From NCBI GenBank assembly GCA_025363655.1, contig JANYDK010000067.1:1-36879 (forward strand): 36,879 nt of DNA, read 5' to 3'. This stretch comes from Deltaproteobacteria bacterium (lineage in GTDB: Bacteria > Myxococcota_A > Polyangia > Polyangiales > JADJMO01). Below the pieces are notes generated by a model. That model was not told the origin of the DNA. It ran no database searches and saw only the letters and a program-made list of their open reading frames with translations. A program made the translations under genes and the position numbers. Shown here in pieces: positions 23,950 to 27,593 of the stretch (positions are counted from its first letter, which is position 1; the number at the start of each line of letters is the position of its first letter).

Positions 23950-24401
23950 GACACCTCCTCGGTGATCGTCCTGGCGCACGCTGCCTCGTCTCGGGAACGT
24001 CGCGCGCCGTCTCTCGTGTCGGTTGCAAGGCGGTTGCAAGGCGGTTGCAAGTACCGCAACGGCCCCTCCTAGACGGAGATTCCAGGCCTCGCAGCGTTTG
24101 CCAACATGTCGTGCGCGATGCAGCCGACGGTCATCTCGTCACGGCTCGAGACGCGAGTCGCATCACTTTTTGCCAACGTGCTCGCACCCGCTGGCGCTCT
24201 TCGCGAGGCGCGTTACACTCGATGAGTCGACGTCGAAGCAACTGCCTCGCGTCGATGGCTCTCGAGAAGGGAATCCCCTGGGCTCATCCACGGAGCGAGC
24301 ACGCTCCGCCTCGCGACCCGACACGATGCGAACGCGCGCTCCGGCCAGCCTCTTGGACTGACCCCACCGCGCGCCGGCCCAGCCGGAGGAGGAGACACAT
24401 C
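23950..24401. other. gap with no convincing gene
   Basis: Apart from the 11-bp tandem repeats at 24021-24052, I see only two similar short elements, GTTTGCCAACATG near 24098 and TTTTGCCAACGTG near 24168, about 70 bp apart. These could be half-sites for one regulator. Longer open frames here lack ribosome sites and have shadow-like composition. Promoters for the small ORFs presumably lie here, but no clear -35/-10 pair was found. Confidence 0.4.
24021..24052. repeat. three 11-bp tandem repeats (GGTTGCAAGGC)
   Basis: GGTTGCAAGGC occurs at 24021, 24032 and 24043 (the last copy lacks its final bases). Each contains the palindromic core TTGCAA. The 11-bp spacing is one helical turn, so the cores would face the same side of the DNA. 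It lies in the gap between the two divergently oriented small ORFs. Confidence 0.55.
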
Positions 24402-24446
24402 ATGCAAAGTACCCGTGGCCTCGAGCTCGAGGGTCCGGTCAGCTAG
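24402..24446 (+). CDS. 14-residue small ORF, possible leader peptide
   Basis: ATG 24402 follows GGAGGAGGAGA, with GGAGG at 24388-24392 and an ideal 9-nt spacing. The peptide is MQSTRGLELEGPVS, then TAG. Six short hairpins and a strong terminator follow before the kinase gene at 24778, the arrangement of a leader peptide/attenuator. There is no run of one amino acid as in classic amino-acid operon leaders. Expression is inferred only from the ribosome site. Confidence 0.4.
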   Translation: MQSTRGLELEGPVS

Positions 24447-24449
24447 CGA

Positions 24450-24673
24450 GCGTGATCTCACGCGCCACGCGAAGAGAGTGACATCTGCACTCTCGGCAGA
24501 CCTGCAGTGTCTCCGAGTCTCATCACGACTGGCGCCCCGTAGCCGCGCAATCGGCTGCAACAAAACAGGCCCCCGTCGGACGTGAGTCTCCTCAGAGACG
24601 GACGCCTCCATGCATAGAGGCCGATGTACCGGTGGGGCGGGTGGCAAGAACGCCACCCGCCCTATCGCTTTTT
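24450..24673 (+). ncRNA. candidate structured leader RNA or small RNA
   Basis: Six local hairpins follow one another: GCGTG/CACGC at 24450-24463; CTCGG(c)AGAC/GTCTCCGAG at 24492-24517; AGCCG/CGGCT at 24541-24556; GTCTC/GAGAC at 24586-24599; GCCTC/GAGGC at 24604-24621; and the terminator stem at 24635-24662. No known riboswitch class was recognised. In GC-rich DNA 5-bp stems are common by chance, so the strength of the call comes from their density, the terminator at the end and the position between a small ORF and the kinase operon. Confidence 0.35.
24635..24673 (+). terminator. strong intrinsic terminator before the kinase gene
   Basis: GGGCGGGTGGC (24635-24645), loop AAGAAC, GCCACCCGCCC (24652-24662): a perfect 11-bp stem, followed by TATCGCTTTTT. 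It ends about 100 bp before the GTG start of the kinase gene. It must therefore terminate a transcript that starts within the 1-kb gap, or attenuate the kinase operon. Confidence 0.8.
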
Positions 24674-24777
24674 GTCCCACTCGATTTGCACCGAGATTCG
24701 TCCGTCCGCGCCTAAATCCAGGGTCGCGCTCCCCGCGAAGTCCCTTCTCGGGGTAGTCTGCGCAAGGAGGAGGGGTC

Positions 24778-26595
24778 GTGGCGACGAAGCTGGAGGTCAG
24801 CCCAATCGACGTGCCTGCATCAGGCCCGTCACCGACCGACAGGCCGCAAGGCGCGAGCAAGTATCGCGACCTCGTCGAGCTTGGCAGCGGCGGCATGGGC
24901 GACGTCTACCTTTCGGTCGTCCATGGGCCCGCGGGGTTCAGCAAGCTCCTCGTCGTCAAACGCCTGCGTGTCTCGCTCGCCGAAGACCCGGAGCTGTTGG
25001 CGATGTTCCTCACCGAGGCCCGCCTGGCGGCGCGGGTCAGTCACCCGAACGTCGTGCAGACGATCGAGGTCGGCAACGACGGCTCCCGTCACTTCATCGC
25101 CATGGAGTACCTCGACGGGCAGTCGCTCCAGGGCCTCCTCCGCAAGTCGCAGGAAGTGGGCGGGCTTCCGCTGGCCATGCACCTGCGCATTCTCTCGGAA
25201 GCTCTCGCTGGGCTTCACTACGCGCACGAGCTCGCCGACATCGACGGTATGCCGCTCGGCGTCGTCCATCGCGACGCGACGCCACACAACGTCTTCGTCA
25301 CCTACGACGGTCAGGTCAAGGTCGTCGACTTCGGCATCGCCAAGGTCGGCGACGGCGACCGCACCCGCACCGGCGTCATCAAGGGGAAGGTGCCGTACAT
25401 GTCGCCCGAGCAGGTCGACGGCACCGACGTCGATCGCCGCACCGACGTCTACGCGGTCGGCGCCATGCTCTGGCAAGCGGCGACGGGACAACGCTTGTGG
25501 AAGGGCCTCAGCGACCTCCAGGTGATGACCCGCGTGCACCAGGGGATGATCCCGCGTCCGCGCGACGTGAACATGCTGGTGCCCGAGAAGCTCGACCGCA
25601 TCATCATGCGAGCGCTCGCGCACAAGAAGGAAGAGCGCTACGCCACCGCGGCCGAGCTGCAGGCCGAGGTCGAGCAGCTCATCGACGAGCTCGGCGGTCG
25701 CAACTCCGCGCGTGAGGTCGGCAAGTTCGCCAGCGAGCTCTTCGCCGAAGAGCGGGTGAAGCTGAAGAACATCGTCGAGACGCAGCTGCGTGCGCTGCGT
25801 GAGTCGAGCGCGCGCGCGGTGCCGCTCAACGGGCAAGATCTCCCGCCGGGGACGCTCTCGATCGCCGCCATCCAATCGGCGTATCCGTCGACCGACACCA
25901 ACCCCGAGGGCGTGCACGCGCACCAATCGGCGAGCTTCCCCGGAGCCGCGCAGCCGCGGACCTCGCAACTGGAGGCGACGCCGGTTCCGCGTCGCAGCTC
26001 GACCCTTCCCTTCATCCTCGGCGGGCTCGCCGCGGCCGGGGCGATCGGCGCCTTCGTCGTCTTGCGCGGAGCCGGCTCGAAGTCGAGCGAATCGACCGCG
26101 CCGCCGACGATGACCAACACCTCGACGATGACGGCGGCGGGTGGCCAGAGCACCACCAAGAGCGACGGTGTGTCGGGCGTCGCCGGTACGCTCGTCCAAC
26201 TCGAGATCACGGTCGATCCAGGCGAGGCCCGGGTGTGGCTCGACGACGGCGCGATCAGCTCGAAATACAGCTCGAAGATGAAGCTCGACGGCGCGTCGCA
26301 CCACGTCCGGGCCGAGGCGCCGGGCTACGTCGGCCGCAACGAGTGGATCAAATTCGACCACACGCCGATCGAGCTCCACTGGACGCTCACGGCGGGTTCT
26401 CCGGATGCGCCGACGGCGACCGCGAGCGTGAAGCCTTGGTCGGTGTCGACGAAGATCCCCACGACGGCGACGGGCACCGCGACCACCACCGCTTCGGCGG
26501 CGCCGACGTCGAGCGGACCGACCGAGCTCGACAAACCGATCCCGAAGACGAGCAAGACCGCCAAACCGATCGACACGAGCGATCCCTGGAAATGA
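24778..26595 (+). CDS. Ser/Thr protein kinase with TM segment and PEGA domain
   Basis: 605 residues from GTG 24778, with AAGGAGGAGG just upstream. The kinase domain spans about 29-305: Gly-loop LGSGGMGDVY (35-44), Lys61, HRD 164-166 with Asn171, DFG 184-186 and MSPEQ (208-212) at the APE position; all catalytic residues are present. A linker and one TM helix (about 410-430, LPFILGGLAAAGAIGAFVVL) lead to an outside domain (about 472-540) of PEGA type: EITVDPGEARVWLDDG ... HHVRAEAPGYV. The tail is Thr/Ser/Ala-rich. This is the myxobacterial Hanks-kinase layout: sensing outside, phosphorylating inside. Its TGA overlaps the start of the TPR-PEGA gene, so both are one operon. Confidence 0.93.
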   Translation: MATKLEVSPIDVPASGPSPTDRPQGASKYRDLVELGSGGMGDVYLSVVHGPAGFSKLLVVKRLRVSLAEDPELLAMFLTEARLAARVSHPNVVQTIEVGNDGSRHFIAMEYLDGQSLQGLLRKSQEVGGLPLAMHLRILSEALAGLHYAHELADIDGMPLGVVHRDATPHNVFVTYDGQVKVVDFGIAKVGDGDRTRTGVIKGKVPYMSPEQVDGTDVDRRTDVYAVGAMLWQAATGQRLWKGLSDLQVMTRVHQGMIPRPRDVNMLVPEKLDRIIMRALAHKKEERYATAAELQAEVEQLIDELGGRNSAREVGKFASELFAEERVKLKNIVETQLRALRESSARAVPLNGQDLPPGTLSIAAIQSAYPSTDTNPEGVHAHQSASFPGAAQPRTSQLEATPVPRRSSTLPFILGGLAAAGAIGAFVVLRGAGSKSSESTAPPTMTNTSTMTAAGGQSTTKSDGVSGVAGTLVQLEITVDPGEARVWLDDGAISSKYSSKMKLDGASHHVRAEAPGYVGRNEWIKFDHTPIELHWTLTAGSPDAPTATASVKPWSVSTKIPTTATGTATTTASAAPTSSGPTELDKPIPKTSKTAKPIDTSDPWK

Positions 26596-27593
26596 TGCGA
26601 CGCCTCCGCACCACCGCGCTCCTCCTCGCCGTGGCCCTCGCCGCGCCGTCCGTCGCATCGGTCGTCCGCGCCGCGCCCGACGACGCTTCGAAGAACGAGG
26701 CCAAAGAGCGCTACGACAAGGGCGTGAAGCTCTACAAGGACGGCGCCTACGAGGCCGCGCTCGTCGAGTTCCAGCGGGCGTACGATCTCAACCCCAGCTA
26801 CAAAATTCTCTACAACATCGGGCTCATCCTCCAGCAGCTGAACGACTTCGCCGGCGCGATGAAGGCGTTCCAGCGCTATCTCTCGGAGGGGAAGAGCGAC
26901 GTCACGCTCACGCGCAAGGTCGAGGTCGACAAGACGCTGAGCGCGCTGCGACAGAACGTCGGCACCGTCGACGTGCAGATGAACGTGCAGGGCGCCGAGG
27001 TGAAGGTCGACGACGTCGCCGTGGGTAGCTATCCGCTTCCCGAGGCGCTCCTCGTCAACGCCGGGCGGCGGCGCATCAGCGCGACGAAAGACGATCTCAC
27101 CGACACCAAGGTGATCGACATCGCTGGGGGCGAGAAGGCCACCGTCACGCTCAAATTGGTGACGCCGCCGAAGAACGGCGCGACGACGAGCACGACCGCC
27201 ACCAGCCTGGTGCAACCGCCGCCGCCGCCCTTGGTGACGCCGAGCAAGAGCGGGACGCCGTGGGTCCTCTGGTCGATCACCGGTGGCCTCGCGATCACCG
27301 GCGGCGTCTTCGGCATCCTCGCGCTCAAGTCGTCGTCGACGTTGAAGAACGATCGCGACGTCTTCGGAGTCACCCACTCGACCCTGGACGATCAGCAGAG
27401 CAAGACCAAGCAATTCGCGCTCATCGCCGACATCGCCTTCGCCGGCGCGGTCGTCGCGGGTGGACTGTCGCTCTACTTCACGTTCAAGTCGGACAAGGAA
27501 GCGCCGAAGCCGGGGGCCGCGAAGACGACGACCACGCCCACCACGCAGCTCGGAATCGGTCCAGGAACGGTGTCGCTCGCAGGCACGTTCTGA
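26592..27593 (+). CDS. TPR-PEGA envelope protein
   Basis: 333 residues from ATG 26592, overlapping the kinase stop (ATGATG start). A signal peptide (1-27) is followed by TPR helices (about 37-110: AKERYDKGVKLYKDGAYEAAL, here in two parts AKERYDKGVKLY and DGAYEAALVEFQRAYDLNP, then YNIGLILQQLND). A PEGA-like strand domain covers about 115-200 (VDVQMNVQGAEVKVDDVAVG). Two hydrophobic segments (WSITGGLAITGGVFGILAL and LIADIAFAGAVVAGGLSLYF) sit near the C-terminus with Pro/Thr-rich linkers. TPR-PEGA proteins next to Hanks kinases are common in myxobacteria. Translational coupling suggests it is a partner or substrate scaffold of the kinase (inference). Confidence 0.85.
   Translation: MMRRLRTTALLLAVALAAPSVASVVRAAPDDASKNEAKERYDKGVKLYKDGAYEAALVEFQRAYDLNPSYKILYNIGLILQQLNDFAGAMKAFQRYLSEGKSDVTLTRKVEVDKTLSALRQNVGTVDVQMNVQGAEVKVDDVAVGSYPLPEALLVNAGRRRISATKDDLTDTKVIDIAGGEKATVTLKLVTPPKNGATTSTTATSLVQPPPPPLVTPSKSGTPWVLWSITGGLAITGGVFGILALKSSSTLKNDRDVFGVTHSTLDDQQSKTKQFALIADIAFAGAVVAGGLSLYFTFKSDKEAPKPGAAKTTTTPTTQLGIGPGTVSLAGTF

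Follow-up and report, generated by a model that had tools for sequence, protein, structure and literature searches.

Positions 24214-24673 of the window (the whole 36,879-nucleotide stretch of DNA analysed here) hold an RNA gene composed of a promoter-like site, a structured 5′ domain, a hairpin abutting the Shine-Dalgarno (SD) site, a micro-ORF, a variable region and a terminator. We think it probable that the RNA made from this gene is structured, transcribed independently and engaged by ribosomes, and that what is conserved is the act of translation and not the peptide. The RNA gene had not been catalogued before; none of the RNA family libraries searched contains it, and no description of it was found in the largely open-access literature searched.

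Layout of the element

The element, on the forward strand throughout, begins at about 24214, well upstream of position 24402 where the initial annotation had placed its start. It opens with a promoter-like -10 hexamer, TACACT (GTTACACT, 24214-24219), from which a transcript start is predicted at about 24226. In the minimum free energy (MFE) fold, the arms CGCGTCG (24248-24254) and CGATGCG (24324-24330) close a 5′ structured domain (24248-24330) that contains the hairpins hA (TGGG-CTCA-TCCA, 24279-24290) and P0 (CGGAGCG-AGCA-CGCTCCG, 24291-24308). Helix P1 (24333-24373) pairs 24333-24338 with 24368-24373 around a variable inner part, and hairpin P2 (CCGGC-CCA-GCCGG, 24374-24386) stacks on P1 and touches the SD site AGGAGGAG (24387-24394), which is nearly invariant in the alignments; in the general layout this hairpin abuts AGGAGG and the ORF has 13-17 codons. 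The ATG at 24402 starts 7 nt after AGGAGGAG and opens a micro-ORF of 14 codons (MQSTRGLELEGPVS, 24402-24446), whose stop, a TAG ending at 24446, holds a position conserved across loci. The variable region (24447-24616) carries lineage-specific hairpins and differs widely in length among members; a DNA search of relatives found no similarity to it outside the family. The intrinsic terminator (24630-24673) has a perfect 11-bp core stem (24635-24645/24652-24662), extended to 16 pairs, and TTTTT at 24669-24673. The RNA from 24402 to 24675 folds at -130.3 kcal/mol compared to -102.5 kcal/mol in 200 dinucleotide shuffles (z = -5.1), none of which equalled it.

Several of these features had been noticed in the initial annotation: the 14-codon ORF with its strong ribosome site, the perfect terminator stem with its T-tract (24635-24673) and its position about 100 bp before a kinase gene are all present, the kinase GTG at 24778 lying 104 bp past the terminator. 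The five short hairpins described between 24450 and 24621 stood in part: the stretch is structured, but not as five simple conserved hairpins, since it varies in length and some of it pairs back to the ORF.

Distribution among myxobacteria

The DNA search of relatives matched 24330-24446 in same-family genomes at sites without the kinase downstream. The layout was also preserved in weaker matches from other families of the order, with ACxCG and CGxGT arms that change in sequence, a GCCGG hairpin, GGAGGAGG and ATGCAAAGTACC. An exact pattern scan of genome contigs returned 17 stretches, titled as strains of Sorangium cellulosum, as MAGs of Sorangium, Byssovorax and Labilithrix, and as other MAGs of myxobacterial or deltaproteobacterial origin. 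So ce26 and So0157-2 are among the Sorangium cellulosum strains with the element. A covariance model built from 12 sequences located the element in 123 of 183 genomes of the order, which from these titles we take to be Polyangiales, and one built from 71 sequences in 140 of the 183, nearly always as one copy. With 87 sequences, the model found it in 165/289 genomes of the class sample and in 76/377 genomes of the phylum sample, again almost always once; one strong match lay outside the class (E = 1.2e-11). Loci outside the order that were read by eye (L163-L168) kept the whole layout, with short ORFs such as MQSTSTSSKEGRS ending in a stop. Genomes devoid of the element may reflect insensitivity of the model or loss. 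A mobile repeat was ruled out by the single copy per genome. The initial annotation's reading hinged on conservation of the stems or the ORF in relatives, and the element is conserved there.

Covarying helices and long-range pairing

Covariance analysis in relatives, which had been suggested at the outset, showed that the helices covary. Over 87 sequences, 97.9% of P1/P2 cells were paired, all six P1 pairs showed changes on both sides, and the P1/P2 covariation score was 0.427; shuffles gave 0.168 and slid pairings no more than 0.07. For P2, 100% of cells were paired and two of its four pairs had changed on both sides. The R2 and R3 alignments were fitted to the structure; the first MAFFT alignment gives the same P1/P2 picture. 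In the 5′ domain, pairing was assessed on a structure-unaware MAFFT alignment: hA paired in 87% of cells (49 loci) versus 27-51% when slid, with two-sided changes in 4/5 pairs, and P0 in 80% versus 40-51%, with two-sided changes in 5/6 pairs. The helices closing this domain differ in sequence between loci (GATGCCGG/CCGGCATC in L128, GTGCAGG/CCTGCAC in L145). By this comparative standard, the compensatory changes in several helices identify the element as a structured RNA gene. The loops of the two hairpins recur among member loci, NTNR in hA and AGCA in P0 (24279-24308 in the window), and may serve in protein binding or tertiary contacts.

The central part of the ORF is complementary to RNA past the stop, a pairing that we named P4. 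In permutation tests, which leave the relatedness of the sequences uncorrected, native pairs scored above swapped ones, with z = 6.7 in the last 75 nt before the terminator (54 loci) and z = 5.9 within 90 nt of the stop (84 loci), while a control region showed no complementarity. In the window, the 5′ arm TGGCCTC (24416-24422) lies within the ORF and the 3′ arm GAGGCCG (24617-24623) is 7 nt 5′ of the terminator hairpin. The MFE fold of the window contains this pairing; the window's own arm is not above average (residual -0.1), the support for P4 being family-wide. Two further pairings were considered. A downstream anti-SD that would sequester the SD was rejected: CCTCC occurs in 17 of 54 tails compared to 11.4 expected, which is not convincing. 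A GUAC-GUAC closing pair joining codons 3-4 to the terminator foot is suggestive only (7/26 loci that have AGTAC versus 1/28 that lack it).

Probable transcription unit and neighbourhood

In 30 of 85 loci an extended -10 motif, TGNTANNNT, stands 5′ of P1 at a similar distance, compared to 4.7 expected from shuffles; at the aligned place the window has GCGTTACACT, without the TG. Most members also carry a strong hairpin and T-tract 3′ of the ORF, usually within 63-300 nt. Neighbouring ORFs were called around 71 loci by a simple heuristic. The nearest downstream ORF was on the same strand in 35 cases and on the opposite strand in 34, and these ORFs fell into 52 families (69 loci). The kinase is next downstream on the same strand in the window only. 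At a same-family locus (L031) a lipid A acyltransferase gene lies directly downstream, which in the window is 5 kb away with the kinase between, and pyruvate kinase is upstream of the element both in the window and in L032. Given the promoter-like site, the terminator and neighbours that are random in strand and family, we infer that the element is its own transcription unit, running from about 24226 to 24673. The suggestion in the initial annotation of an independent small RNA thus gained support from order- and class-wide conservation without a fixed neighbour.

In the window, 24778-27593 encodes a Ser/Thr kinase (605 aa) and then a TPR protein. The PEGA label given to this operon was not borne out: with Pfam at E ≤ 1, neither the kinase nor the TPR protein after it has a PEGA domain hit. 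At about 20 loci, not including the window, tRNA-Gly(CCC) is found near the RNA, often downstream on the same strand (L040, L041, L045, L050, L054, L092-L098, L100, L103, L106, L108, L110, L116, L135 and L147). A functional link to this tRNA was set aside: the arrangement is syntenic in a subset of loci only and looks like subclade synteny.

Search for known RNA classes

With Rfam 15, the window gave no match at gathering score, and within 24150-24780 nothing at E ≤ 10 approached its cut-off; among nine member loci, tRNAs alone passed theirs. The element is not tmRNA: ARAGORN and Rfam were both negative at its position, and a canonical tmRNA lies elsewhere in the same genomes (in this one at G000:C142). 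Nor is it 6S RNA, for which there is a candidate elsewhere in the genome (G000:C96:67086-67275, 41.2 bits versus a cut-off of 46.4). The 6S candidates of four out of seven other genomes tested were also below Rfam's 46.4 cut-off; therefore the 6S model may under-call in this group. A CsrA-sponge RNA of the CsrB/RsmY type was discarded, CsrA being absent from seven of eight genomes, including the window's genome, and so was an Hfq-dependent sRNA, with Hfq in 0/8 genomes.

Translation signals of the micro-ORF

In 81 of 84 loci the ORF frame meets its first stop at codon 12-18; for the other two frames the counts are 11/84 and 2/84. All three triplets serve as the stop (TAG 43, TGA 21, TAA 20). 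Since the stop is held at this length with any of the three triplets, termination there seems to be selected. ORFs were chosen with a length filter of 9-24 codons and three loci were dropped; on reading their sequences, L146 has 15 codons, L133 has 21 and L150 has a GTG start. The pN/pS ratio was 1.14 in the ORF frame (21 independent pairs) and 1.08 and 1.03 in the other two, values that come from 21 short pairs in which RNA structure constrains the same bases, so that weak peptide selection is possible. Differences by codon position numbered 32/35/43. The N-terminus of the peptide is often M[QHD]ST, and the reading frame over the shared RNA motif CTCTCA.CCGG differs between L116 and L119. The ORF contains an SD-like GGAGG, and a programmed frameshift there was considered and dropped, since inspection by eye showed neither a common slip site nor a frame that continues. 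Compared with what defines a dual-function sRNA, the start, SD, ORF length and stop are conserved and peptide selection is not detectable. The simplest reading of these sequence comparisons is that being translated matters and that the peptide does not.

Alternative readings

Peptides under 20 aa are known from dual-function sRNAs, and the element could be a structured small mRNA or such an sRNA, making a 13-17-aa peptide with a folded leader that only tunes its translation. The perfect SD, the conserved start, frame and stop, and a recurring M[QHD]ST..G start with E[GV] near the end would all fit; however, pN/pS stays at about 1.1 as in other frames, and the C-terminal half is kept as RNA pairing whose frames differ between lineages, which leaves this reading unlikely, about one chance in a handful. 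We would put lower still a plain trans-acting sRNA with an ORF that is incidental or merely protects from decay. It would account for the own promoter-like site and terminator, the single copy and the covarying structure, but a stop kept so narrowly in place with all three triplets would be needless in an untranslated RNA, and we regard this reading as distinctly improbable.

The third reading, one of the two offered in the initial annotation, is that the element attenuates transcription of the gene downstream, here the kinase, or acts on it as a riboregulator. The small ORF, the long-range pairing and a terminator shortly before the kinase start are what it would call for, but the kinase lies directly 3′ on the same strand in the window only and the genes next to the element elsewhere are unrelated. 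The random downstream neighbours refute attenuation as a family-wide role, and we consider it very improbable for the window as well.

Proposed mode of action

Our preferred reading, an RNA conserved for being translated, takes the element to be a structured RNA gene of about 450 nt that stands alone, occurs in single copy and lies outside the kinase operon. RNA polymerase would start near 24226 and stop at 24673, as the conserved signals suggest. The 5′ domain (hA, P0, P1 and P2) would present an open and very strong ribosome site, from which a ribosome would initiate at 24402, read 14 codons and terminate at the conserved place, as indicated by the start, SD, frame and stop. Through P4, the central part of the ORF would pair past the stop and, because one P4 arm lies inside the ORF, the ribosome and the long-range helix would exclude each other. 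Translation signals are under selection and the peptide is not detectably so, which is why we propose that ribosome transit or occupancy, and not the peptide, is used, in a regulatory RNA that is gated or engaged by ribosomes and acts in trans. It is speculation to see a switch in the exclusion between ribosome and P4, or to assign the RNA a trans-acting role on some target. More specifically, translation of the micro-ORF could be the working or sensing step of the RNA, ribosome transit opening the long-range helix, toggling the RNA between two states and reporting translation status to a target; we advance this version tentatively and hold it less likely than otherwise.

A heavily structured RNA that is present once per genome, is retained in most of an order and extends across the class likely has a basic role. 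Conserved translation signals around a non-conserved peptide would be unusual in a free-standing RNA, an arrangement open to direct test in culturable Sorangium strains, and the Hfq-less myxobacteria would gain a broadly conserved candidate regulatory RNA.

Comparison with known systems

Like the Pxr sRNA of Myxococcus, the element is a myxobacterial sRNA gene. Pxr is a short triple stem-loop belonging to another suborder, Cystobacterineae, at whose base its origin has been placed (PMC5568312); going by this description, the element differs from it. With tmRNA (RF00023) it shares a structured RNA with an internal short reading frame, but its initiation would be of the ordinary SD/AUG kind and the tmRNA model does not match it. 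It resembles trp-type leader-peptide attenuators in its short ORF with a strong SD, its translation-meltable structure and its terminator, and differs from them in having no linked downstream gene, a random neighbour strand and no conserved regulatory codon run. Spot 42/SpfP is a dual-function sRNA. So is VcdRP, with a 29-aa peptide (PMC8672173). The element is like these RNAs in being intergenic, with its own promoter-like site, an intrinsic terminator and a short ORF inside. RNAs of this kind have a functional peptide and/or a seed region, usually with Hfq, whereas here Hfq is absent, the peptide drifts and covarying structure dominates.
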